The notes under the pieces are model-generated. The model ran no database searches, was not told where the DNA came from, and was given only the letters and a program-made list of their open reading frames with translations. The translations under genes and the position numbers were made by a program. Of a DNA stretch of 64,000 bases, positions 9,256 to 39,095 are shown piece by piece. Each line of letters opens with the position of its first letter. Position 1 is the first letter of the stretch. The stretch comes from an uncultured bacterium (GTDB lineage Bacteria; Actinomycetota; Actinomycetes; S36-B12; CAIYMF01), in assembly GCA_903826575.1 (NCBI GenBank), contig CAIKEU010000069.1, positions 62,001 to 126,000 on the forward strand, written 5' to 3'.

Positions 9256-10011
9256 CTATTTCTGTGCGCCATCTTGCGCTTGACGCGCAGCGCGCGCCTT
9301 CGCGACGAACGCGTACTGATTCACATAAATCAGATCGCCTAACTGAATGAGCGCATCCTTGACGATGTTCACCATTTCGTCTGCACTCATCACAGCAGCA
9401 TCGACGGCCAGCCGCGGGGAGATTTTTACCGTCGCTCGAGTACGGCCTAACGAAATTGGCTCGTACCGCGTTGCAACGGCGTGCACCGGGATCGAGGGAT
9501 TAGCTACCAGGAGCGGAACAAGAATTCGCGAGTGCAGTCGGTACAGCTTTCCCTCATCAGGTGCCCGAGTGCCCTCGGGGTAGATGCCAACCTTGTTGCC
9601 ATCGTTCAGCGTCGATTGCGCCATTCGCATCGCCCAGTCCGTAACTGGCTCATCGCCACGACGCAGTGGAATCTGGCCCATAAAGCGAAAGAAGGGACCG
9701 ATCGTGTGTGAAAACCACTCTGCCTTAGTAAACGCTGTGACTCGCCAACCGGTCTCCATGACAAGCACGATGGGATCGAACGTGGACGTGTGATTGCCGA
9801 TCAAGATCGCGGGGCCCGGGGCAACATTGCTCTGGCCGGACAACTCAATAGACATTCGAACTCGCAGCGCATTGAGAGCGCGCACAGTCCACCGATACGT
9901 CTTAGCGCGCCCTGGACGTCCGATGGGGACATCTCCGTATAACTCCTGCCCTTCCTTGAGCAGTAGTTCATAGGCGTCGGCGGTTGTTGTCACGCATTCA
10001 TCTTTGCGCAT
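9256..10011 (-). CDS. 1-acyl-sn-glycerol-3-phosphate acyltransferase (PlsC family)
   Basis: About 251 residues. The NHTSTFDP block (NHx4D catalytic motif, roughly residue 75), a PLRRGD block and the YPEGTRAPD block (acceptor binding) identify a PlsC/LPLAT enzyme that adds the second acyl chain in phosphatidate synthesis at the inner membrane face. Start uncertain: ATG at 10011 or GTG at 9993 are both weakly preceded; a TTG at 10041 lies inside a hairpin and is unlikely. It ends 65 bases before the kinase operon on the same strand and may be co-transcribed with it, which would join polyol-phosphate and phospholipid metabolism. Confidence 0.85.
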   Translation of the reverse strand: MRKDECVTTTADAYELLLKEGQELYGDVPIGRPGRAKTYRWTVRALNALRVRMSIELSGQSNVAPGPAILIGNHTSTFDPIVLVMETGWRVTAFTKAEWFSHTIGPFFRFMGQIPLRRGDEPVTDWAMRMAQSTLNDGNKVGIYPEGTRAPDEGKLYRLHSRILVPLLVANPSIPVHAVATRYEPISLGRTRATVKISPRLAVDAAVMSADEMVNIVKDALIQLGDLIYVNQYAFVAKARAARQAQDGAQK

Positions 10012-10038
10012 ATCGACGGGAATGACGATGCGAACATA

Positions 10039-10083
10039 CAACTGCCCCTGTGAAACTCGGCATAGAGTCCACAGGGGCAGTTG
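10039..10083. terminator. Perfect 14-bp hairpin between the holin-like gene and plsC
   Basis: CAACTGCCCCTGTG at 10039-10052 is exactly inverted at 10070-10083, leaving a 17-base loop. It begins nine bases after the minus-strand stop at 10092. It probably ends transcription of the small membrane-protein gene, although no long T-run follows on the minus strand. Confidence 0.7.
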
Positions 10084-10091
10084 AAAAGTCT

Positions 10092-10469
10092 CTATACGTT
10101 GCTTGTCTTCTTAAGGAGCATGGGCAAAATGAACGCGGCAAGTGCGCCGAACAGCCAGATGATTGCCGCGCCACCAATCCATGATCCAAAGTCGTCAATG
10201 CTGATGCCCTTGAACAAGAGGTTCACAATCGCCAATGTCACCAAGCTCGCGACCAAGCTCACTCCGCCCATGAGGATCGGCGCGTTCTTTTGGAGAGTCT
10301 TCGCAACGATCGGTGATAACAGCGCCATGATCAGCCCGAAGATCAATGGCACGACGATGTACGCCCAACCACCGTCAACATGAAAGCCGGGCAAAAGCAT
10401 GTCAGCGGCAAAGATCCCGATGAAGGCAGCCAGAAAGTAACCGGCGGCACTCTGAAACATGTGCGTCAT
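10092..10469 (-). CDS. Small integral membrane protein, phage-holin-4 / DUF family-like
   Basis: 125 residues from the ATG at 10469 (a second in-frame ATG at 10460 is as likely). Four hydrophobic segments occur, with the family signature LPGFHVDGGWAYIVVPLIFG and a following LSPIV, as in the mycobacterial four-TM phage-holin superfamily (Phage_holin_4_2). Members are chromosomal and not phage-borne; their role is unknown. It lies downstream of the GH84 gene with a 55-base gap and is followed at once by a perfect hairpin. There is no reason to see a prophage here: no other phage genes are near. Confidence 0.7.
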   Translation of the reverse strand: MTHMFQSAAGYFLAAFIGIFAADMLLPGFHVDGGWAYIVVPLIFGLIMALLSPIVAKTLQKNAPILMGGVSLVASLVTLAIVNLLFKGISIDDFGSWIGGAAIIWLFGALAAFILPMLLKKTSNV

Positions 10470-10524
10470 AGGACAACTGTAGCGTTTACTATGGTGTTTG
10501 TCCCGCACGTCAGTGCACGACGCC

Positions 10525-12180
10525 TTAGCGGCCAGCCCAGTTCTGAGCGAGAACGTCATCGATAAACATGGACAGCGTGTCGGCGAAAACTCGGGGGTGA
10601 TCGCCGAAGGCGGCCTGATGAGTCATGGGACGCAAGACGTTACGTGCCACATCAGGGCTGATACCTCCCGAAACTAGGGCCGCGATCTGGCGTAGCGCCG
10701 CGGCCCCACGTGCATACTGCTCGATCCACGGACGTGACTGTTCGATCAACAGCGGATTGCCAACATCGGATTTCAGGAGCGCGTCAGCAGTTTCACCGAT
10801 CTCGCTTGCAAAATCAGTCAGAACCCGGCAGCCCGCAACGTTGTCGCCCGACCCGAAGTGCAGCCACGCCTTTGCGATCACATCACCCAACGCGGGAGCA
10901 TCCACCGTCGCAAGGCATGACCATTGCGCATTCTCAGCAAACCGTAGGTAGGCATCCGCCTCGGGGCCCGCAGTTTCTCGAATCGCGTTTTCCCAACTTC
11001 CCTGCGCTGAATAGCCCTCGGGATCACGCAGGTAGTCGCCGATGGTGGCAAGCGAGATTTTCGACGTCTCGGCCCGGTCACTCGCGTTCGCGGCGATGCC
11101 AGCGCTAAGCCGATACAGATGTCGATCCCGACCGCGATACGGCCCGATATGCAATTCTCCGACCATAGCCACATCGTTAACGGGGTAGTTATCCCAATAC
11201 AACGGCGGTCGGCGCGTCGAGCGCATGAAAACCGCAGCATCGAGCAAATCCAAACGATGTGAACAGATCTCCCGCCCGGTCCAGAACAGATCAATCCGCG
11301 GGTGCAACGCTTCACCAAGCTCGACGACATACTGCTCGTCACCGATCCCGTGATAGACCAGTGGGCAGACTGCCAGCTCAATATCTGGAGAAACCGCCCA
11401 TAGCGCTTGGGCCACGTACGTCGCGAGAGCTCCGTGAGCATGCGCAATGGATCGGTAAGCGGAGCGATCTTCATCGAACTGTAAATCCTCAGGAATATCA
11501 TCAAGCAGGAGACCAATCCGCCTTACCCCAAGCTGATGGAACGCAAGCATTCGCGCGACGAGCGCTTGGCGATCATCACCATCGCTGTAGCGAATGCTCA
11601 GGCCTGGTGAGACACAGCACATGATTTCAATGCCGTTAGCCCCTGCCCGAGTGGTGATTTCGGCGATGTTGAACCGATCGGTATCGCTCAGCTGACTACG
11701 CCAGTCCCAACGCTGCGATGCTTCGTCCTTGGGAGCCAAAACAAATAAGTTGAAGTCGTGATCAGCCAGGAAATCCACCATGTCGAGACGCTCCGCATGT
11801 GACCACGGAGGTCCGTAGAAACCTTCGAGCACCCCGCGCTGGGCAAATTTTCCATACACGGTTTGTTCGGTCGCCCAATCGTCGGTGCGAAGCCCGCGGC
11901 GGATGGCGTTGAACCCGGAACGAATTCCAACGTCATGGGCAGCGGTTAGCCGCACCCGCAGGGGGCTGCCGGACTCAACGTCCAACCGAAAGCGCTCATT
12001 GAGTTGACGTGCAGTCAGACCCGAATCGACGTGGGCGTGTAGCAACGACGGATCAATGCGGCTCGAGATCGACACATCAGCCTCGGATTCGTGCTCGACT
12101 AACCGATACCCCCAGCGCGTCACGCACTCGCGGAGGACGTCAGTCCAAACACCTTGACCAAGGAACCACGCAGTACTCAT
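10525..12180 (-). CDS. GH84 beta-N-acetylglucosaminidase (O-GlcNAcase / NagJ-like hexosaminidase)
   Basis: 551 residues with no signal peptide, so it is probably cytoplasmic. The GH84 core is clear: RGVLEGFYGPPWSHAER (115-131), FNLFVLAPKDE, the catalytic Asp pair in RRIGLLLDDIPEDL (about D227-D228), LFWTGREICS and YWDNYPVND. GH84 enzymes remove beta-linked GlcNAc by substrate-assisted catalysis using the 2-acetamido group. The N-terminal 110 residues correspond to the usual alpha/beta prelude domain, and the C-terminal 200 are helical. The ATG overlaps the stop of the BadF-SIS fusion gene (ATGA). Product GlcNAc would be the natural substrate of that kinase. Natural glycoside substrate unknown. 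Confidence 0.88.
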   Translation of the reverse strand: MSTAWFLGQGVWTDVLRECVTRWGYRLVEHESEADVSISSRIDPSLLHAHVDSGLTARQLNERFRLDVESGSPLRVRLTAAHDVGIRSGFNAIRRGLRTDDWATEQTVYGKFAQRGVLEGFYGPPWSHAERLDMVDFLADHDFNLFVLAPKDEASQRWDWRSQLSDTDRFNIAEITTRAGANGIEIMCCVSPGLSIRYSDGDDRQALVARMLAFHQLGVRRIGLLLDDIPEDLQFDEDRSAYRSIAHAHGALATYVAQALWAVSPDIELAVCPLVYHGIGDEQYVVELGEALHPRIDLFWTGREICSHRLDLLDAAVFMRSTRRPPLYWDNYPVNDVAMVGELHIGPYRGRDRHLYRLSAGIAANASDRAETSKISLATIGDYLRDPEGYSAQGSWENAIRETAGPEADAYLRFAENAQWSCLATVDAPALGDVIAKAWLHFGSGDNVAGCRVLTDFASEIGETADALLKSDVGNPLLIEQSRPWIEQYARGAAALRQIAALVSGGISPDVARNVLRPMTHQAAFGDHPRVFADTLSMFIDDVLAQNWAGR

Positions 12181-13898
12181 AACGACCTCACCTGATGACG
12201 GTAACGATCTAACAGAACCTTATTAATCTCATCTCCACCGACCGTATTCGAACTTGCGAATACCTCGGGTTCAACCCCGCTATCGACGAGAAGCGCAACA
12301 ACTTCGGCAGCCAATGCTTGCAAGAGGGCAGCGCCTACGACAGTGCTCGTCGCACCCACTCGACGATCAAGTCCTGGAATTGAAACTGCCGCATCGCCTA
12401 CTACTCCGTGGTTATTTAGCACCACATCCGCGATATCGTGCAGTCTCGTCGATGCACCAGCCCGAGCATGTGTCGACGTCGCGTGGGACAGACTTGTCAA
12501 TGCGATCACAAGCACCCCCATGCTGCGCGCTAGCTGGGCAAGTTCAACGCTGACTGAGTTACCGCCCGAGTTCGAAACAATAATCAGAACATCACCCGCC
12601 TTCATCGGGTGCTGGCTGACAATCGACTGCGCGAGGCCGGGCCTGCGCTCGATTTCAGTGCTCATCGACGCCGATTCGTGCAACATGAGTTCGCCGATCA
12701 GAATCGGATCTACCCGTGCCAATCCGCCTGCCCGGTAGAACAACTCCTCGGCAAGCATGTGGGAGTGTCCGGTACCGAACGTGTGAATCATTCCGCCCGC
12801 CAGAATCGCGGCGGAAACTCGCGTTGCAGCGAGCGTCAGGTTGCCTGACTCAGCAGAGGCTGCCTGAGCCAAGGTGACGGACGCGGCTCGAAGGTACGCG
12901 GATGCGGCTGATCCCACGGGTCGATGTTTCAGAGCTCGACTCGCTGCGGTGGATCGAGCGGTGACCGCATTCGAATACACGCCAAGGTCTTTCGAAGCGG
13001 CCATCGCGAGCGCGCCATCCAATGGGGATTGAGCAGTCAGCGTCACCGTCAAACTCGGCGATATTCGTTCGAGGGCGGACGTCACCAACGTTGAGTACGT
13101 TTCCGACCCGGTCACGAGCCGGCCCATCAACGCGACCCCACCTAGTGCCGATTCCGGGAGGGTCGCCGCACACGCTTGGGCACAATCTGCTAACTCGTCT
13201 GCAGCCCGGTCGAGAATGCTCAGCGCAACCAGATCACCCGCATCGGCCGCCGCAATGACGTCAACAGCGAACGCGGCGATCGACGACACGGCACGCTCAT
13301 CGACGTGGACGCGAACCGCGAGATCCTCGGGTGAGGTCGAAAATCGGGACGAGGCTGCCTGCACAAGTGTGGTCGATGGGCCTCTGCCATCGAAACCTTT
13401 GATAGCCGAGGCCAATCCCTGGCGTCCGATCCAGTATGCGCCGCCTTCGTCACCGATCAGATAGCCAGCGCCACTGGCTTGGTGGATACGCCGATTGGCG
13501 GCATCCACAGCCAAACACGCAATTCCCGTTCCTACAACGAGCACGATTCCCGAAGCACCGTCGAATGCAGCACTATGCGCCGTCACGGTGTCGTCCACAA
13601 TGAGAACGTCCTCGGCGCCAAGCGCCTCGGCGATTTCGTCTGCCAGCAACTCAATGGCTGCGAGCTCGGCCGGAAGTGCTGTGAGACCTGCAACCACACG
13701 GGCACACGACGAAACTCCACCAGCCTGCCCCGCCTCGATGACCGCGTCACGAACCCGAGCACCCACGTCATCGCCATGGCTGACTCCAGCAACAACGATG
13801 ACGTCTTTGGATCCGTCTACCTGCAACCGGAGTTGGGACTGCCCGCCGTCGATTCCGACACCTCGCGGACGTCTGGGCGATTCGGAATCAACAATCAC
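12177..13898 (-). CDS. Fused BadF-type amino-sugar kinase and SIS-domain protein
   Basis: 573 residues from a GTG at 13898 (GGGAG eight bases ahead). Residues about 1-310 form a BadF/BadG/BcrA ASKHA kinase: GIDGGQSQLRL phosphate loop, VDDTVTAHSAAF, LVVGTGIACLAV and GYLIGDEGGAYWIGR as in GlcNAc kinases. Residues about 330-573 form a SIS domain of the UPF0309/YckH-like kind: FGTGHSHMLAEELFYRAGG, VSNSGGNSVSVELA, and a late SSNTVGGDEIN. Such domains bind phosphosugars, and MurQ-type etherases are relatives. The fusion suggests that one chain both phosphorylates GlcNAc and isomerises, lyses or senses the product. Length equals a normal kinase plus a normal SIS protein, so no part is missing. Confidence 0.85.
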   Translation of the reverse strand: MIVDSESPRRPRGVGIDGGQSQLRLQVDGSKDVIVVAGVSHGDDVGARVRDAVIEAGQAGGVSSCARVVAGLTALPAELAAIELLADEIAEALGAEDVLIVDDTVTAHSAAFDGASGIVLVVGTGIACLAVDAANRRIHQASGAGYLIGDEGGAYWIGRQGLASAIKGFDGRGPSTTLVQAASSRFSTSPEDLAVRVHVDERAVSSIAAFAVDVIAAADAGDLVALSILDRAADELADCAQACAATLPESALGGVALMGRLVTGSETYSTLVTSALERISPSLTVTLTAQSPLDGALAMAASKDLGVYSNAVTARSTAASRALKHRPVGSAASAYLRAASVTLAQAASAESGNLTLAATRVSAAILAGGMIHTFGTGHSHMLAEELFYRAGGLARVDPILIGELMLHESASMSTEIERRPGLAQSIVSQHPMKAGDVLIIVSNSGGNSVSVELAQLARSMGVLVIALTSLSHATSTHARAGASTRLHDIADVVLNNHGVVGDAAVSIPGLDRRVGATSTVVGAALLQALAAEVVALLVDSGVEPEVFASSNTVGGDEINKVLLDRYRHQVRSL

Positions 13899-13939
13899 GA
13901 CGCCAACTCCCGACTACGATAAAGGGCGTGGAGGCCGCT

Positions 13940-14530
13940 ATGACGTTGCGATTGGCACAACCGCACGACCACGACGCGCTCTATAACGTTGCACTTCTGA
14001 CCGGCGACGGTGGCGCAGACGGCACACATTTGTTTGACGATCCTCGACTTCTTGGAGAGGTATTTGTTGGACCCTACATCCATCTTGAACCCGAATTCGC
14101 CTACTCGGTGGAGCTTGACGGGCCAGCTGGTTATGTTCTCGGCTGCCTTGATACAGGTTCACTTGAGGACCGGTGTGAATCGTCGTGGTGGCCGCCCTTG
14201 CGAGTTCGGTACCCGCTCGAGAACGTACGTCGAGACAGCGATCAGGAGTTAGTCCGCTTCATCCATTTTCCTGAACGTCGACCTGAAGCACTTGTTCGAG
14301 ATTTTCCCTCGCACCTACACATCGACTTGGCGCCGCGCGCACAGGGCCACGGTTACGGTCCGCGGTTCCTGGAGTTTCTGTTAGATCGACTGACGCAAGC
14401 AGGCTCGCGCGGCGTTCACCTGGGTGTCGCCAGCGGCAACCTCAGAGCGCAGTATGTCTACCGTTCACTGGGCTTTCAGGATTGGGAGAACGCTGGCGGC
14501 GAACTCATCATGACGAAGGAACTCAGCTAG
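13940..14530 (+). CDS. GNAT N-acetyltransferase resembling the O-GlcNAcase HAT-like domain
   Basis: 196 residues. Start at the ATG at 13940 because GGAGG lies five bases before it; an upstream GTG at 13928 is the alternative. GNAT features: RLAQPHDHDALYNVALLTGDGG at the N-terminus, a mid-protein YVLGCLDT strand, the acetyl-CoA loop RAQGHGYGPRFLEFLL (about 135-150), and a final ASGNLRAQYVYRSLGFQ. The N-terminal pattern and the WWPPLR-RYP stretch are those of bacterial proteins related to the C-terminal pseudo-acetyltransferase domain of animal O-GlcNAcase. It is divergent from the GH84/kinase operon with about 40 bases between starts, so a shared promoter region is likely. Acceptor unknown. 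Confidence 0.75.
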   Translation: MTLRLAQPHDHDALYNVALLTGDGGADGTHLFDDPRLLGEVFVGPYIHLEPEFAYSVELDGPAGYVLGCLDTGSLEDRCESSWWPPLRVRYPLENVRRDSDQELVRFIHFPERRPEALVRDFPSHLHIDLAPRAQGHGYGPRFLEFLLDRLTQAGSRGVHLGVASGNLRAQYVYRSLGFQDWENAGGELIMTKELS

Positions 14531-14564
14531 GAAGCGCGCTTGCGCGGCAGAGCCCGGACAACGA

Positions 14565-15119
14565 CTAGACGTTTGAAACCGTGCCCGGCTGATCCGTCAC
14601 CTTGTTCGGCCGCTGGGCAAGGAATCCAGCGACCAGGGTTACTACGCCAGCCGTCAGCGGAACCCACCGAGCAACATCGGGCATCACCTGGATCAGCCCA
14701 TTCCACACCAGCACGCCACCACCTAGAGCGGTGACAAGCGAGATGCCCCAGTCAATTGATGCTTTGACTATTGCGTACCCAATGGCTGCGCCGATCGCGA
14801 ATCCGACGAGGCGCAGGAATGTGTTGTTATCGAACCACTCATTAGCCAGTGTCATACCGAACAGGCCGACAAGCACCGCACCCATAGCCAGACCGATGAT
14901 GGGCAGACCACGAAGCGCAACAACAGCCATCGCGATACCTACCACTGCGCCAACGAGCAGTCGCGCCAGCGAGTCAATGTTTGGCAAGAGCAAAAGAGTG
15001 AAAAGCCAGCCAACGCCAAAACCTGCAATGCCAACAGCAAGCCAGATTAAACGCTTCCCCGTGAAGGCAAGCACGATTCCAAGAGCAATCAGAATCCATC
15101 CACCAAGTGCGGCACTCAC
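14565..15119 (-). CDS. DUF4203/TMEM198-like multipass membrane protein
   Basis: 184 residues from a GTG at 15119, with AAGGTGAG upstream; longer starts lack hydrophobic or coding character. Seven or so short hydrophobic segments (from LGGWILIALGIVLAFTG to VPLTAGVVTLVAGFLAQ) with Gly-rich helix packing, as in TMEM198-like proteins. Function is not known for the bacterial members. The gene is divergent from the C45-peptidase gene (117 bases between starts) and convergent with the GNAT gene. Confidence 0.6.
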   Translation of the reverse strand: MSAALGGWILIALGIVLAFTGKRLIWLAVGIAGFGVGWLFTLLLLPNIDSLARLLVGAVVGIAMAVVALRGLPIIGLAMGAVLVGLFGMTLANEWFDNNTFLRLVGFAIGAAIGYAIVKASIDWGISLVTALGGGVLVWNGLIQVMPDVARWVPLTAGVVTLVAGFLAQRPNKVTDQPGTVSNV

Positions 15120-15235
15120 GGGGATCTCACCTTCATTTGGACGGTCAACAATTCGTGGATCATCCTTGCAGCAACGTCCCGTCGATGCACGCACCGAGGC
15201 ACCGGCACGTGAGTCTTGGCGCTACTGTTTCGCCC

Positions 15236-16297
15236 ATGGACGCTTCCAGTGCTAGCCATCAGAGTGTGATCGACGTTCACGGCGACGGATACGAACGCGG
15301 GCTTGCCCACGGTGAGCATTTGCGAGCCGCGGTGCAGAATTCTGTTCGAAGTCTTGTGGAAGCACTCGGTGGCCAAGCCGAGATTGAACGATTCATCGGC
15401 GAGACGAACTTCCTTCCAACCATTGATCGCCTCACACCTGATCTTGGTCAGGAAGTCCGCGGTATCGCCGTCGGAAGCGCAATGCCGCTCAACCTCGTAC
15501 TCGCTCATAACCTGATGGACGAGCACTGGTGGTGGTCGACGAAGCGCAACCGACGCGAAGCGTGCACACTTTTCGCAACCACCTCCCCCACCCCGATCAT
15601 TGGTCAGACGATGGATCTTCCGTCATACATGGACGGGAGTCAGTTCATCTTGCGCAGTCATTTCGCAGACGGATCGGTGTCCGCTGTTCTGAGTTCCGCC
15701 GGATTGATCGGGCTCTGTGGCACTAACTCACACGGCGTTGGCATCTGTGTAAATGCGTTGTCGATGTTGAATCACTCAGGTGCCGGACTCCCCGTGGCGT
15801 TCGTCATGCGTGGCGCGCTCGCCTCGGCAACGTCTACCCGGGCGATCGAGTTCATTCGATCAGTGCCGCACGCTTCCGGACAGCACTATGCAATTCTCGG
15901 TCCGAATGATGATGGTGAAATCACGTCAACTGGCATCGAATGCTCGGCCTGGGGCGCAGTCGACTCCAGTGACGGCGCCTCGCGCTTTTCGCACACAAAC
16001 CATCCGCTAGCAACTACCGATCTCGACCCAGAAGTTGAGACGCCGACTTCCTCAACATATGCACGATTCGACGTCGTCACCACGCGCGGCGAAACAGTCG
16101 AAACCGGTGACGATCTCATCGCAATCCTGCAGGACCGCAGCGGCCCGATTTGCGTCGAGCGTGCCGACACCGGCCTGTGGATGACGTTCGGCGCCATCGT
16201 CACGGAGTTCACTAACCCGATTCGGATGCGTTACGCGCTCGGCCCACCCACGCAAAGCACGTGGGCTGACGTTGAGTTAACAACGATGTCGTTTTAA
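15236..16297 (+). CDS. C45-family (acyl-CoA:6-aminopenicillanate acyltransferase-like) Ntn hydrolase
   Basis: 353 residues from the ATG at 15236; longer upstream extensions read poorly. N-terminal VIDVHGDGYERGLAHGEHLR is the usual opening of the C45/carcinine-hydrolase-like family. The conserved Cys (about C110 in NRREACTLFA) would become the N-terminal nucleophile after self-cleavage; QTMDLPSYMDG, GLCGTNSHGVGICVNAL, and SHTNHPL follow as family blocks. No signal peptide. Members cleave or transfer acyl groups on amides (penicillin, carcinine, other N-acyl compounds); substrate here unknown. Its stop overlaps the stop of the converging membrane-protein gene by four bases. Confidence 0.8.
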   Translation: MDASSASHQSVIDVHGDGYERGLAHGEHLRAAVQNSVRSLVEALGGQAEIERFIGETNFLPTIDRLTPDLGQEVRGIAVGSAMPLNLVLAHNLMDEHWWWSTKRNRREACTLFATTSPTPIIGQTMDLPSYMDGSQFILRSHFADGSVSAVLSSAGLIGLCGTNSHGVGICVNALSMLNHSGAGLPVAFVMRGALASATSTRAIEFIRSVPHASGQHYAILGPNDDGEITSTGIECSAWGAVDSSDGASRFSHTNHPLATTDLDPEVETPTSSTYARFDVVTTRGETVETGDDLIAILQDRSGPICVERADTGLWMTFGAIVTEFTNPIRMRYALGPPTQSTWADVELTTMSF

Positions 16298-17880
16298 CCC
16301 TGCGATTCCCCCGGACCACTAAGTGGCCCATACCCCCCTTGTCCATTGGGTCCGCCTCCTGGGAAGCCACCGCCACCCGGTCCATTGGGTCCGCCTCCTG
16401 GGAAGCCACCGCCACCCGGCCCGTGGTCGGTCGTCAGCGTTCCAAACGTACTGACCGAGACAGCCAAGAGCGCAACGACCGCAACTGCCGCGAGCCAACG
16501 TCGCAACTGAACCAGAAGCCACGCACCAAGCGCGGCGATAACACCCAGTGCGGGCATATAAAAGCGAATCGTGTGAATGCTTCCGCCGTGATCATCACCT
16601 GCCATGCGCACCGTCCAGTCATAGGCCAGATAGAGAACCCATAAGCCGAACCATCCGGCAGCCAAGACGGCACCGATCGTTGCGTCACGCCGCGCACGAC
16701 CGCGTGCAATTCCGTCAAGGCTGCGACTTTGTACCAATCGAACGATCATCCATACCAACCCTGCCAATGCCAGAACGATCATCGGCATGCTCTTCACAAG
16801 ATGCGCCGGCATGTGAATGAGATTGGGGCCGATAGACCCCAGGCTGAAGGTGATCTCGCCCGATGAATAGCCCGTCGACAATGGACTCCCGTAGTAATGC
16901 AGATTCCACCACGCCATCAGCAGGGCGAAGGCCACGAGTGATCCGCCCCACCAGCCTGCGGTCGCCTTCGGCAGCGACGTCCTGCGCATGAACACAACAG
17001 CAGCCACTATCGCTACGATCAGGAAAATGATGTTGGTGTAGCGAATCGCCACCGCCGCCTCAAGAGCCACGAATCCGGCCAGTCCAACGATCGTTCGCCA
17101 ACGATCTGCACGATCAGTTGCCAAGAACGCCCAGATCAACGTACCCACTCCCACGGCAATGAGTGAGGCATCGGTAAACGTAGGCATTGTCGAACGCCAT
17201 GCGAACGCAGCAGCCGTTCCTGATGCACAGAACAGTGCGACCGCCCAGGTACCCGCCCAGGACCCCACCCACCGACGTAGACCCGCGAAAAGCGCTAGAC
17301 ATGCCAAGCCACCGTAGAACAGCGGCGCAGCGCGCAAGATGCCCATGGCTTGGAATGGCAACGCTAAGTATGGATAACCAGGATTCTTCTCACTGATGTA
17401 CGTACCGTCCGCACGTTTAACCCACTGCATGATGCCTTGTCCACCCATGTCGTCTGGACCGCCGAATCCAGGTTTTGCCCCGTCACCGCCCGGACCGCCG
17501 GCCCCGAAGGACGGAATCCCAACTCCACCTGGATCTGGCGCAGAACCCGGTCCGACCACATTGCCGCCGGCCGTCGGCAGGGTGATTGAGGTACCACCCA
17601 GTTCCTTCGCGAGAGCTTGGTACTGAGCCGCAGTCAGAGTGACGTTGCCGTGCGAGAGCGCAACGATCGAGGCCCGATAGGCATAGTCGTCCGGCTCCAA
17701 TAGTTGCGGTGCCTTACTTAAGACAAGGCCGCAGAACGCCACGAAAATCGCAACCGCCACCCCGATCTCCCACCAGCTTGGACGAGCCGGTCGTGGTGTG
17801 ATCTCCACTCCCGAATTGTGATCATCGATTTCGTCGACGGCATGGTCCACGTCGTCTGCACCAGGGGGATGGTTACTCAT
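16294..17880 (-). CDS. Large multipass membrane protein, GT-C-glycosyltransferase-like, with Gly/Pro repeats
   Basis: 528 residues. One membrane segment (about 38-57) is followed by an extracytoplasmic loop with EPDDYAYRASI, an acidic motif placed like the catalytic loop of GT-C (GT39-like) glycosyltransferases, and by a Gly/Pro/Asp-rich insert (about 105-150). About ten more membrane segments come next. The C-terminus carries GGGFPGGGPNGPG repeated twice, from a perfect 39-base tandem duplication. Polyprenyl-phosphate-sugar-dependent transfer is the family-based guess; a true sugar-donor signature cannot be seen. Monocistronic: it faces the plus-strand gene at 18011 across 130 bases. Confidence 0.55.
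   Translation of the reverse strand: MSNHPPGADDVDHAVDEIDDHNSGVEITPRPARPSWWEIGVAVAIFVAFCGLVLSKAPQLLEPDDYAYRASIVALSHGNVTLTAAQYQALAKELGGTSITLPTAGGNVVGPGSAPDPGGVGIPSFGAGGPGGDGAKPGFGGPDDMGGQGIMQWVKRADGTYISEKNPGYPYLALPFQAMGILRAAPLFYGGLACLALFAGLRRWVGSWAGTWAVALFCASGTAAAFAWRSTMPTFTDASLIAVGVGTLIWAFLATDRADRWRTIVGLAGFVALEAAVAIRYTNIIFLIVAIVAAVVFMRRTSLPKATAGWWGGSLVAFALLMAWWNLHYYGSPLSTGYSSGEITFSLGSIGPNLIHMPAHLVKSMPMIVLALAGLVWMIVRLVQSRSLDGIARGRARRDATIGAVLAAGWFGLWVLYLAYDWTVRMAGDDHGGSIHTIRFYMPALGVIAALGAWLLVQLRRWLAAVAVVALLAVSVSTFGTLTTDHGPGGGGFPGGGPNGPGGGGFPGGGPNGQGGYGPLSGPGESQG
16342..16419. repeat. Two perfect tandem copies of a 39-base unit
   Basis: 16342-16380 and 16381-16419 are identical. The unit keeps frame and encodes a 13-residue Gly/Pro/Phe/Asn block at the C-terminus of the GT-C-like membrane protein. 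Being exact, it is a recent duplication and could vary in copy number between strains. Confidence 0.9.
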
Positions 17881-18010
17881 GTCACAAGCACATCACAATG
17901 ACATATGAGAATGGTGCAGGGATCTTGAAAGTTTGACCCTTATGCTCACAACCCGAGTTGTGTCGCCAAACCATGCCACGTGAGATGTTGATGTAGACAG
18001 GACGGGAACG

Positions 18011-24981: not shown

Positions 24982-27267
24982 ATGAGCACACGCATTCTCT
25001 CGTCGGTACCGGCTGGAAAATCCAGGGCGGGTACTGGCGAGCTGCTGCATTTCCTCGCACCCTTCATCCAACCGGTGCGCGGTCGACTCGTTCTCGCTCT
25101 TGTACTCGCGACAATTGCTCTCGGATCAGCGGCCATCATCCCGTTGCGCGTCGACGCGGTGCTCGCCGGCGAAGGAAACACAGCGCTCATCGTCGTCGCC
25201 ATTGCCGCGCTCATGGCCCTAACCCTGATTACATCCGGTACGTCGCGGTGGTTGTCGTATCGGTCAGCAGCTCGGATCGGTCAAGACTTGTCGGAGTATG
25301 TCTACGATCGCACTCTCGACGCGCCAATGTTGCGTCAACAGGGAATGCGCCGACCCAGTGTGATCAGTCGCCACACGAGTGATGTTGATCGACTTGAGGA
25401 GGCCGTCGACGTCACAGTCACTGAGGGACTTCCGGGCGTGGGTCGAATCGTGGTGAGCCTTGCACTGCTCATGTACATCGAGCCGAATGCCGGGCTCGTC
25501 ACTCTGGCCGCGACCCTCCTTTTTCTCCTGCTCAACAGCCGAATAAGTCGTGGCATGCTCGCGCGCAATACGGCCAGACTCGACACCAGCAGTGAAATTG
25601 GCGCGGTCGTCGATGAGTCGATCACCGCCAACCGCAACGTAACCGGGATGAACCTCAGCGATTGGATGCGCGATCGCTTTTCGCAGCGTGCAGACAATTT
25701 GAGAATTGCGACAGAGGAACAGAAGCGTGAAGCTAGTCGCCTGATCACCGCTGCACGATTCACGGGATACGCGGCCGTGCTGGCAGTGGTACTGATCAGC
25801 ATTGTTTCTGGGGCTTCTGAGGCTGGCAAGATTGCCGCATCGCTGCTGTACATCGATGCCGTCGTCCGCGGACTGGAAGCACTTCCACATTGGTTACGTG
25901 ATATCCGGCTCGCTGTGACCAGTAAGCGACGCATCGAACAGATCACACAGGCCGAGCCTCGCGTCACTCGATCGACGGGATCGGTCGTCTCGCTACAGGA
26001 ACCATCACTGGTACTACGCGATGTCGCACTGCACCTCGATAATCCACTGATGGTGGGTGATATCCACGTTCCCCGTGGCGTAATCGTGGCAGTCGTCACC
26101 GACATGGGCGTGTCAACCAATACCTTCCTCGAAGTGCTCAGTGGCGACGCCAATCCGGCAGGGGGGTGCGTACTCTTCGATGGAATAGACGTACGTGTTC
26201 CATCCATTAAAAGACGCATCATGTTGCTGACAGATGACCCCGTCCTCATGGATGCGTCGGTGAACGATCATTTGCGGGCGTCCGGTGCGCACTGCACTGA
26301 TGCCGAAATAGCAGTCGTGCTCGAGATGGTCGGAATTGGACACCTAGCAGACCTTCCAAACGGTGGCCTTGACGCACCACTGGGCACTCAGGCCGCGCGA
26401 CTGAGCATGCACGAGCGCCAGCGATTGATGATTGGAATGGCTGCGCTTGGCGATGCTGACGTGGTGGTGCTGCAGGACCTTCCGTTGCTCGCCGACCCAG
26501 ATAGTGCCGCACCTGCCCTTGCCGCGCTGACCCAGCATCCTGACCGCACGGTTGTATTTGCTACGTCGAACGCCGAACTAGCGGCGCGTGCCGATTGCGT
26601 GGTGGCCCCTATCGGCACCCGCATAGCGGTGGGCCCACATCAAGAACTGATGGAAGTTGCGGACTACGCGGCCGTCTGGGAACGACAGATTGCCGGTGGT
26701 GTGGACACGCGAATCCTTGAATCTATCCCGGAGGCTCAGCGCGAAACCCTGCGCTCGCGCTTGCTCACCGAACACTTTCGCAGTGGCGAGATTTTGTACC
26801 GAGCCGGTGCACCCGCCGATCGCGTGATGTTCGTTGTCACTGGCAGAGTCGGCATCTACACCAGCGATAGTGATGGCAACGAGCGCCTCGTTGCTGAGAT
26901 CGGTGCGGGCAACTTCTGCGGCGACGTCGGCAAGGCGGACGCGCGACGCACCGAGACTGTGCGTGCGGTGAACGACACGATGGTGCGCACACTCAGCGTT
27001 GAAGCGTGGTCGGCAGGAGTGATGGGACTACTCGACGCTGACCCTGCCGAACGTCTGGTCATGACCGCGATCTTACGCAGTGATCATCCGACGATCGAGC
27101 AACTTCCGAGCTTGGTTCGCGGCTTGGGCCACGACGCCGTCATGACCACTGCGGCCGAGCTGCTAGAAAGCGGGAAGGTGCGCGCTGACGACGAGGGTCG
27201 ACTTTCAATCACCATGCGACGACGCGCACGCTCTCACAAACTGCTCGATCAATTGACGGGCCTTTAA
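24982..27267 (+). CDS. ABC-exporter-like protein with degenerate ATPase domain and C-terminal cyclic-nucleotide-binding domain
   Basis: 761 residues. Residues about 20-315 form an ABC-exporter membrane domain with about six hydrophobic helices. Residues about 345-565 align with an ABC nucleotide-binding domain but every catalytic motif is altered: Walker A reads VTDMGVSTNT (no Lys), the Q-loop Gln is Asp (LTDDPVLM), the signature is LSMHERQRL, Walker B is VVVLQDLPLL (no DE pair) and the H-loop His is lost (FATSNAE). Residues about 585-700 are a cNMP/CRP-type domain (FRSGEILYRAGAPADRVMFVVTGRVG, GNFCGDVGKADARRTETVRA), followed by a basic tail. Likely inactive as a pump alone; perhaps a regulatory or heterodimer partner. 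Confidence 0.8.
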   Translation: MSTRILSSVPAGKSRAGTGELLHFLAPFIQPVRGRLVLALVLATIALGSAAIIPLRVDAVLAGEGNTALIVVAIAALMALTLITSGTSRWLSYRSAARIGQDLSEYVYDRTLDAPMLRQQGMRRPSVISRHTSDVDRLEEAVDVTVTEGLPGVGRIVVSLALLMYIEPNAGLVTLAATLLFLLLNSRISRGMLARNTARLDTSSEIGAVVDESITANRNVTGMNLSDWMRDRFSQRADNLRIATEEQKREASRLITAARFTGYAAVLAVVLISIVSGASEAGKIAASLLYIDAVVRGLEALPHWLRDIRLAVTSKRRIEQITQAEPRVTRSTGSVVSLQEPSLVLRDVALHLDNPLMVGDIHVPRGVIVAVVTDMGVSTNTFLEVLSGDANPAGGCVLFDGIDVRVPSIKRRIMLLTDDPVLMDASVNDHLRASGAHCTDAEIAVVLEMVGIGHLADLPNGGLDAPLGTQAARLSMHERQRLMIGMAALGDADVVVLQDLPLLADPDSAAPALAALTQHPDRTVVFATSNAELAARADCVVAPIGTRIAVGPHQELMEVADYAAVWERQIAGGVDTRILESIPEAQRETLRSRLLTEHFRSGEILYRAGAPADRVMFVVTGRVGIYTSDSDGNERLVAEIGAGNFCGDVGKADARRTETVRAVNDTMVRTLSVEAWSAGVMGLLDADPAERLVMTAILRSDHPTIEQLPSLVRGLGHDAVMTTAAELLESGKVRADDEGRLSITMRRRARSHKLLDQLTGL

Positions 27268-36978: not shown

Positions 36979-38625
36979 TCAGCTCGCCGCGATTTCAGTG
37001 ACCTGGCCGTCTTCAACATGCCAGCGACGGGTCAGGCGGACGGTGTCGAGCATGCGGCGATCGTGAGTTACGAGAAGCACAGTTCCGTCGAAGGATTCGA
37101 GCGCCTCTTCCAACTGCTCGATCGCGGGAAGGTCGAGATGATTCGTTGGCTCATCGAGAACGAGCAGGTTGACTCCGCGGGCCTGAAGTAGCGCCAAGGC
37201 AGCGCGTGTGCGCTCCCCTGGTGAAAGCGACGATGCGGGACGGAATGCGTGGTGCGGGCCTAGCCCAAACTTCGCGAGCAGGGTGCGCACATCGGCCATC
37301 GGCCAGTCAGGAACGAGGCGAGAGAACGCATCAGCTAGTGCGTCGACGCCTTCGAACAACGCCCGCGCTTGATCCACCTCGCCAATGACAACACCAGAGC
37401 CAAGGGACACCTGACCGGCATCCGGCTCGATACGTCCGAGGAGTAGCGCGAGCAGTGTTGATTTACCAGCGCCGTTTGGACCAGTCACCGCTATGCGATC
37501 TCGCAGGGCCAATTGAAGATCGACGGGGCCCAGAGTGAAATCCCCACGACGAGCCGTCGCTGCGCGGGCCGTAGCGACGACGTCCCCTGATCGCGGCGCA
37601 GCGGCGATGCTGAATTGCAGCGTCCATTCCTTTCGCGGCTCTTCAACCGTTTCAAGCCGTTCGATCATGCGCTCACTCTGCCGCGCTTTCGCCGCCTGCT
37701 TTTCCGTTGCCTCGCTTCGGAAATTGCGTCCGATCTTGTCGTTGTCTTTACTCTTGCGACGGGCGTTCTTAACGCCCTTCTCCATCCACGCGCGTTGCAT
37801 GTGTGCGCGTGCTTCGAGCTCGGCTCGACGGCCCGCGTACTGCTCGTAATCAAGGCGGGCCTGACGGCGAGCTACTGAACGCTCGTCAAGATACGCCTCA
37901 TAACCACCGCCGTACGTGGTGATGCGTTGCAGGCTTTGATCTATCTCGACCACAGCGGTGACGGTGCGAGCGAGGAACTCGCGATCGTGACTCACGACTA
38001 CTACCGGGGCGTCCAAACGTTCGACGAAGTCCTCGAGTAAATCGAGCCCGTCCGCATCGAGATTGTTCGTCGGCTCATCGAGTAGGTAGACGTCGAAGCG
38101 TGACAGCAGCAGTGCAGCCAGGCCGACGCGCGCCGCTTGTCCTCCAGACAGCGCGGTCATGTCGAGATCAAGGTCGACGTCGAGCCCGATCTCGTCGACA
38201 ACCTTTGCTACCCGTTCGTCGAAGTCAGCGCCACCGAGTGCCAACCAATTTTCCAGCGCGTCAGAGTACGCGTCCGCGGCGGCTTCATAGTCTTCGCCGA
38301 GGGCAATCGACTGGCGATCAAATTCATCTTGCGCATCGAGCATGCCGGTCCTGCGTTGCAGATGCATCAGTACTGACTCACCCGGAGCCGTCTCAGGTTC
38401 CTGCGTCAGATATCCCATGTGCGCTGATGGCGGCGACACGGTGACAACACCGGAATCTGGTGGCCGAATGCCCGCGAGGATGCGAAGGATCGTCGTCTTA
38501 CCAGCACCATTGGGACCAACCAGCCCAATCACATCGCCCGGAGCTACAACGAGGTCAAACCCTGAGAACAGTTCACGATCACCGTGACCGGCCGAAACTG
38601 CGCGCGCCTGAACGGTTGCGCTCAT
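36979..38625 (-). CDS. ABC-F family ATPase (ribosome-associated)
   Basis: 548 residues, two ATPase domains and no membrane part. Domain 1: GLVGPNGAGKTTILRIL, TALSGGQAARVGLAAL, YLLDEPTNNLDADG. A linker of about 80 residues rich in Arg/Lys (ARHMQRAWMEKGVKNARRKSKDND-type, positions about 255-300) corresponds to the P-site tRNA interaction motif. Domain 2: AVTGPNGAGKSTLLALLLG, SSLSPGERTRAALAL, VLDEPTNHLDLPA. ABC-F proteins act on ribosomes during stalling; some protect against antibiotics. Similar actinobacterial proteins are often labelled as resistance factors, but nothing here shows which drug, if any. Confidence 0.88.
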   Translation of the reverse strand: MSATVQARAVSAGHGDRELFSGFDLVVAPGDVIGLVGPNGAGKTTILRILAGIRPPDSGVVTVSPPSAHMGYLTQEPETAPGESVLMHLQRRTGMLDAQDEFDRQSIALGEDYEAAADAYSDALENWLALGGADFDERVAKVVDEIGLDVDLDLDMTALSGGQAARVGLAALLLSRFDVYLLDEPTNNLDADGLDLLEDFVERLDAPVVVVSHDREFLARTVTAVVEIDQSLQRITTYGGGYEAYLDERSVARRQARLDYEQYAGRRAELEARAHMQRAWMEKGVKNARRKSKDNDKIGRNFRSEATEKQAAKARQSERMIERLETVEEPRKEWTLQFSIAAAPRSGDVVATARAATARRGDFTLGPVDLQLALRDRIAVTGPNGAGKSTLLALLLGRIEPDAGQVSLGSGVVIGEVDQARALFEGVDALADAFSRLVPDWPMADVRTLLAKFGLGPHHAFRPASSLSPGERTRAALALLQARGVNLLVLDEPTNHLDLPAIEQLEEALESFDGTVLLVTHDRRMLDTVRLTRRWHVEDGQVTEIAAS

Positions 38626-38630
38626 ACCCC

Positions 38631-39095
38631 TTAGTACTCGCCCTTGATGACGAAGTACGAGCCGCGAATGGTGCCAGCCAGCTTCGACTTCTGACGGGCA
38701 AACTTGAAGCGATCAGCCAGTTCGGATGGAACGTCCATGCCATCGGAGAGCTTGAACCCGACGGCTCGTTTTCCGGCATCAGCGAGTGTGTAGAGAACGT
38801 TGATCGCCAGCCCACTTTCGTAGAACACGTACGTCCAGCGAATTCCGTCGACTTCAAATTCGGTGGCTTCCAACGGCTTTGATTCGATGATGATGTCGCG
38901 CTCATCTTTGAGAACCTTTGCGACGTAGGCGATTTCCTTCTTCGCCTTGCTCGCTGGTTCGGTGGTGAAGGTGTGGTCGTACTTGTTCTTGAAGTAACGA
39001 GCCTCATTGGCGCGAAGTCCAGCAAGCGCATCCACTACGGGTGACGATTCAAGTCCAACCGTCGACACCGTTTGAAAGTCCACTACATACGACAT
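38631..39095 (-). CDS. Hypothetical 154-residue cytoplasmic protein
   Basis: ATG at 39095 with AGGGGGA seven bases upstream, so translation is well supported. No signal peptide, membrane segment or known motif. The sequence is mixed alpha/beta with basic patches (ARYFKNKYDHTF, KAKKEIAYVAKVLKDERD, RFKFARQKSKLAG) and reads like a soluble single-domain protein. It ends six bases before the ABC-F start and probably forms a two-gene unit with it, hence a possible ribosome or stress link; that is inference from position only. Confidence 0.65.
   Translation of the reverse strand: MSYVVDFQTVSTVGLESSPVVDALAGLRANEARYFKNKYDHTFTTEPASKAKKEIAYVAKVLKDERDIIIESKPLEATEFEVDGIRWTYVFYESGLAINVLYTLADAGKRAVGFKLSDGMDVPSELADRFKFARQKSKLAGTIRGSYFVIKGEY

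Follow-up and report, generated by a model that had tools for sequence, protein, structure and literature searches.

The sulfonylurea receptor SUR is a Mg-nucleotide-binding ABC protein that controls a potassium channel, and in SbmA/BacA an exporter-type membrane domain moves its substrate without ATP. In CRP, the phosphate-binding cassette of the cNMP domain follows the pattern FGE...R-[ST]-A. ABC exporters with degenerate ATPase sites are also known, and in TM287/288, TmrAB and MsRv1273c/72c catalytic residues have been lost in one half. Such sites retain much of the ATP-binding machinery, as is generally known and as stated in PMC7756269. Finally, HetC, a cNMP-ABC exporter, is reported to bind ppGpp (PMC10986499).

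The gene described here, C0, lies at 24982..27267 of the 64-kb window, by which we mean the whole stretch of DNA analysed; all its features are on the + strand. It encodes an ABC-exporter-derived protein of 761 aa without ATPase motifs and with a CRP-like C-terminus, in a frame that is free of internal stops. Pfam detected ABC_membrane at residues 56-291 (66.5 bits), ABC_tran at 362-497 (30 bits, cut-off 25) and cNMP_binding at 597-675 (PF00027, 58.9 bits). Since both PF00664 and PF00005 scored above cut-off, C0 has the exporter fold, composed of a six-helix membrane domain and an NBD fold. The full-length structure prediction from 37 sequences (mean pLDDT 79.6, pTM 0.77) contained six long helices, the full NBD fold, the cNMP domain and a winged helix at about 688-743. 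The transmembrane domain comprises residues 18-322 (25033..25947), while the NBD-like domain, residues 341-571 (26002..26694), has retained its fold and lost its active site. Using Foldseek and VIA-align, the model of residues 6-571 fell among ABC exporters, including TM287/288 and MsRv1273c/72c, with a Z of ~22.

The cNMP-binding-like domain (residues 597-675, 26770..27006) shows the strongest conservation of all domains in the family, with a mean column entropy of 1.19, compared with 1.93 for the NBD; the linker after it reaches 0.84. Its phosphate-binding cassette (residues 643-658, 26908..26955) is remodelled, with CGD in place of the FGE of CRP. The earlier note had described a cNMP domain fused at the C-terminus. 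The domain is indeed there, but it does not form the end of the protein, since it is followed by a winged helix at residues 688-743 (27043..27210), with the order H-H-H-strand-strand in both models. With a winged helix after the cNMP domain, the last ~190 residues of C0 resemble a CRP/FNR protein. Folded alone, the C-terminal 192 residues gave a mean pLDDT of 74.6 and a pTM of 0.47, and Foldseek matched them to whole CRP/FNR proteins over ~200 alignment columns, nearly the whole length of CRP. The models and these matches support a CRP/FNR-like layout, but with a TM of only ~0.4 and an rmsd of 16-20 the matches do not reproduce how the two domains are placed relative to each other; VIA-align of this model covered the cNMP part alone. 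The chain closes with a basic/leucine tail, RRRARSHKLLDQLTGL (residues 746-761, 27217..27264), delimited from the family alignment, in which R747 and D756 are present in at least 90% of the 37 rows.

The motifs of C0 were read by alignment to ABC exporters with intact motifs from the same genome, and their conservation was followed in a set of 37 distinct full-length homologues with 86 to 29% identity, one of which (L088) ends at a contig edge before the cNMP cassette. The Walker A equivalent, VTDMGVSTNT (residues 372-381, 26095..26124), carries T379 in place of the lysine, which is found in 0/37 members, and the Ser/Thr position of this motif is Ser in only two of them and mostly Asp (26/37). 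In the Q-loop equivalent LLTDDP (residues 415-420, 26224..26241), Gln is replaced by D418, and four of the 37 members keep it. The signature equivalent, LSMHERQR (residues 474-481, 26401..26424), has LSMHE for LSGGQ, retaining the L and S, and is marked by an invariant Arg-Gln pair directly after it. The Walker B equivalent, VVVLQDLP (residues 494-501, 26461..26484), reads Q498 for Asp and D499 for Glu. The first position is never Asp in the family (Gly in 29/37), and the second is the catalytic Glu in a single member and Asp in six, the window protein among them. The H-loop equivalent FATSN (residues 526-530, 26557..26571) has S529 for a His that one member of 37 retains. Of the remaining motifs, the A-loop aromatic is also absent and a D-loop-like stretch, LADPD (residues 503-507, 26488..26502), has kept its acid, which is present in 37/37 members. 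C0 has neither the Walker A Lys, the Walker B Asp and Glu nor the H-loop His of a working ATPase. The former active-site columns show a variability that is ordinary for the NBD (percentiles 8-72).

No sister with intact motifs was found among the 37 full-length family members. To judge from this alignment, the loss of the ATPase motifs is ancient and common to the whole family. We then estimated dN/dS by NG86 on 14 close pairs, with dS high or saturated in several. The whole-gene ratio was 0.05-0.19 in 13 of the 14 pairs, where it was computable, and that of the NBD 0.03-0.11 in the 10 computable pairs of the 12 with NBD data. The low ratios indicate purifying selection, so that neither intact close homologues nor a near-neutral dN/dS, the outcomes named by the earlier note as speaking against it, appeared. 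Together with the family-wide motif loss, they rule out a recent decay of C0. From the sequence alone, that note had claimed that the Walker A, Q-loop, LSGGQ, Walker B and H-loop residues are all replaced while frame and fold are intact over 761 codons, and had suggested selection for a non-hydrolytic membrane protein. The alignment to the exporters of the same genome bears out the first point, the ORF, Pfam matches and model the second, and the third agrees with the lack of an intact close homologue, the loss in 37/37 members and the whole-gene ratios. The homologue alignment it had called for found the loss conserved throughout.

Two half-degraded relatives, from genomes G256 and G762, score 317 and 326 bits and belong to the class of G256. 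Their Walker A retains some Gly and has Ile for the Lys, Asn-Asp or Thr-Asp takes the place of the Walker B Asp-Glu pair, and Asp that of the H-loop His. They have kept the A-loop Tyr and an FGE or FGD cassette, and they already carry the linker and the winged-helix end. Further away, at 181-199 bits against the family model, L111-L113 represent intact ABC exporters whose C-terminal cNMP domain is canonical and which lack a winged helix; such intact ABC-cNMP exporters were found solely as distant proteins. In a quick maximum-likelihood tree, for which the program flags long branches, the 37 motif-less proteins all fall on the same side of a branch with an SH-aLRT of 100, which the two intermediates adjoin (100). 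These half-degraded relatives show a possible route from a pump to another function.

Family members are present in 35 of the 166 genomes of the order (at 1e-60), so C0 is not a chance product. Among 396 genomes sampled from the phylum, matches at 1e-42 were confined to G000, G181, G256 and G317, and the last was discarded as an ordinary exporter with intact motifs that lacks a cNMP domain. Relatives with a name include freshwater MAGs deposited under the title Candidatus Nanopelagicales and Actinobacteria bacterium IMCC26256, whose genome is complete. Six loci (L038, L046, L047, L048, L052 and L055) place a freshwater actinobacterial C0 locus under Bifidobacterium breve MAG titles, which look wrong. 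We found no relative of C0 in viral contigs and rejected a virus-borne origin; among the 20 plasmid homologues listed of 31 records, there were only ordinary ABC exporters at a coverage of at most 53%.

Five genes, C1-C5, recur around C0. C1 comprises Cache-HAMP proteins that have neither a kinase nor a methyl-accepting domain and share a common C-terminal peptide. C2 is a MinD/ParA-like ATPase with 71% mean column identity, and C3 is a polytopic protein with a weak MFS match and a basic tail. C4 is GNAT-like, with a weak GNAT match in the copy of the window genome (L097) and none in L031, L032 and L104. Finally, C5 resembles acetolactate decarboxylase and carries a winged helix, its C-terminal HTH match being weak. 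At least one of the five lies within 8 kb at 27 of the 36 family loci (C1 at 22, C2 at 20, C3 at 13, C4 at 13 and C5 at 9). This count includes related, hence non-independent, loci and several short contigs, and it used C1-C5 models derived from the same clusters. The other nine loci have no module gene within this distance, partly through contig ends. In several loci the cluster is close to rpoC, the S12 gene or EF-Tu (L046 14692-18630, L031 1-507, L037 3923-5149), which points to a core chromosomal place.

Across the 166 genomes of the order, C2 is present in 32/35 genomes with C0 and 10/131 others, and C3 in 26/35 and 2/131 (Fisher p <1e-19, in a statistic that ignores kinship). Within the window genus, all four C0 genomes have C2 and the seven genomes without C0 lack it. 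C2 was also found in 5/5 further genomes with C0 or an intermediate and in 0/3 with an intact ABC-cNMP exporter, and none of C1-C5 lies near the intact exporters L111-L113. In G256, whose own C1 and C3 are rows of the C1 and C3 models, C5, C0, C2, C4, C3 and C1 occur together, all five neighbours within 10 kb of C0. The relative in G762 (L119) lies outside the cluster, though the genome has C2. In IMCC26256 (G181), a C1 adjoins C0, while C2, C4, C3 and another C1 are clustered elsewhere. C2 also occurs without C0 in G574 and G586.

A plasmid of Deinococcus sp. KNUC1210 (NZ_CP092194.1, L103) carries at 9458-18006 a C2-like MinD, a second MinD-like gene, two C1-like genes and a C3-like gene near SpoIIE/STAS genes and without C0, so the module exists outside Actinomycetota. 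No plasmid match was obtained with C3, and among the 15 plasmid matches of C5 listed out of 141 records, 14 were an ordinary budA and one was unannotated. A PhyH-type dioxygenase gene adjoins C4/C2 in the window genome (L097 292-1215) and in IMCC26256 (L129 7354-8301). Also adjoining C2 is a 176 aa protein without a Pfam match (L129 8321-8848), which by eye resembles a stand-alone winged helix with a terminal basic/leucine tail similar to those of C0 and C5.

No C1-C5 gene was found within the 64-kb window or within 10 kb on either side of the orthologue of the window gene, L022; at another locus, L023, there is little flanking sequence. The window genome does encode C1, C2, C3 and C4 outside the window, with C2, C1 and C4 in one operon, in that order (L097), and C3 at L096. 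It also has a second C0 copy (L002/L098), which is 50% identical, equally motif-less and divergently oriented beside a Cache-HAMP gene. With these genes elsewhere and none beside it, the window copy is a second, detached member of the family, an orphan paralogue.

Building on the observed anatomy, the ancient and selected motif loss and the gene association, we propose with moderate confidence that the C0 family serves a sensory module of the Cache-HAMP/MinD type as its membrane scaffold or relay, having descended from an ABC exporter and being unable to run an ATP cycle. The usual location of its relatives amid sensor-system genes suggests that a pump has become a component of signalling. The six-helix membrane domain and NBD fold would have been retained as a scaffold that carries the CRP/FNR-like cytoplasmic end. 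A signal received by C1, the Cache-HAMP receptor, or a small ligand bound to the cNMP domain of C0 would alter how the NBD-like and CRP-like domains are arranged in their pairs. The winged helix, together with the basic tail, might then serve as a protein contact, read by the MinD-like ATPase C2 or another cytoplasmic partner. We infer the dimeric state of C0, its physical contact with C1 or C2, the direction of signalling and the existence of a ligand. The window copy may work with the module genes encoded elsewhere in its genome.

A different possibility, which we consider unlikely, is that C0 is a passive or gradient-driven transporter or channel, independent of ATP and gated by its cNMP/winged-helix end. 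The membrane domain has kept its six helices and is under purifying selection (dN/dS 0.05-0.23 where computable), and the weak MFS match of the neighbouring C3 means that the module touches transport. Furthermore, C39-like ABC exporters adjoin C0 at two related loci (L040 1166-3406 and L047 12980-17478), with intact Walker motifs and N-termini that by eye are C39 peptidase-like. However, the NBD-like part has remained whole and constrained, which a pure channel would not need, and most loci lack any association with substrate genes.

We also doubt that C0 is itself a receptor for a nucleotide or second messenger (cAMP, c-di-AMP, ppGpp or other) with the cNMP domain as its true input. The high conservation of this domain speaks for such a role, as does R656, presumably the phosphate-binding Arg, which is retained in 31 of the 36 family rows with data. 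Residues 646-648, on the other hand, are C-G-D in 36/36 of these rows, so the canonical cassette has been remodelled throughout. A search of the window genome for class III cyclases (PF00211) gave no match, in a search whose control was positive in 5/14 genomes; this weakens the case for an endogenous cAMP or cGMP ligand, and we discarded such a cyclase as the ligand source in this genome. The same genome encodes one protein with a diadenylate cyclase (DAC) domain. In G574, a cluster without C0 (L130, contig G574:C22, 5480-10281) combines C5 and C2 with a class III nucleotide cyclase of two domains (PF00211, 112.9 bits) and a Cache-HAMP C1, a possible tie between the module and a cyclic nucleotide. 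Weighing the CGD cassette and the missing PF00211 match against the DAC domain, the G574 cyclase and ppGpp binding by HetC (PMC10986499), a cyclic nucleotide may possibly be the ligand of C0. The earlier note had envisaged a membrane receptor responding to a nucleotide or other ligand. Its non-hydrolytic membrane protein stands, whereas the ligand response and the receptor role do not follow from these data, and in the gene clusters the neighbouring Cache-HAMP protein is the obvious receptor.

It is improbable that C0 is the inactive half of a heterodimeric exporter of the kind of TM287/288 or MsRv1273c/72c, with the gene for the intact partner at another place, even though heterodimeric exporters in which one site is degenerate are its best structural matches and the window genome has intact ABC exporters elsewhere. 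Unlike known degenerate sites, C0 has lost nearly all of the ATP-binding machinery, and its sole close second copy in the genome (L002) is likewise dead. The search for a partner half-transporter proposed earlier found no adjacent intact one in the window. By pattern, a Walker A together with a signature-like motif occurs in only one other window ORF, at 36982-38712 (577 codons), which is perhaps an ABC-F protein. As for a decaying pseudogene, to which the alteration of every ATPase motif might point, the 761-codon open frame, the 37 distinct full-length members surveyed and the low dN/dS in all parts leave it practically no chance, and we ruled it out.

Returning to the scaffold or relay that we favour, a broader and more tentative proposal is that C0 belongs to an undescribed sensory system, in which Cache-HAMP receptors devoid of an output enzyme would signal via a MinD/ParA-like ATPase, and an ABC exporter would have been fully converted to a membrane relay or scaffold by ancient ATPase loss and the gain of a CRP-like end. 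Our literature search, which covered sources other than subscription papers and preprints and is thus weak evidence of novelty, returned no description of the C0 family or the C1-C5 gene set. Degenerate ABC sites are known, but we found no account of a whole family that has lost nearly all ATPase motifs while its fold remains under selection. The conserved gene neighbourhood suggests that freshwater actinobacteria have a signalling module with an unusual output, a MinD/ParA-like ATPase, and IMCC26256, a complete genome with C0-C4, makes the question of this module testable.

Compared with the known systems, C0 shares the membrane-domain and NBD folds of TM287/288, TmrAB and MsRv1273c/72c. These, however, retain ATP binding and a second active site, whereas C0 is without Walker A, Walker B, H-loop and A-loop and has no evident active partner. 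HetC-type exporters of Nostoc, like C0, join an ABC exporter and a cNMP domain in a single chain (PMC10986499), but HetC has both its cNMP domain and a C39 peptidase in N-terminal position and requires its ATPase, while the Pfam domain order of C0 is different, with a C-terminal cNMP domain, a winged helix and neither peptidase nor ATPase. L111-L113 are similar to C0 in being ABC exporters with a C-terminal cNMP domain; they differ in their complete set of ATPase motifs, their canonical FGEMALLDDAPRNATV cassette and the absence of both a winged helix and nearby C1-C5 genes. With CRP/FNR proteins, C0 has in common a cNMP domain followed by a winged helix, but it is membrane-anchored, in the model joins the two by a short linker rather than a long helix, and has CGD instead of FGE. 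Finally, SUR resembles C0 in being an ABC protein that serves as a regulator and not as a pump, from which C0 differs in being bacterial and in having no nucleotide-binding motifs.
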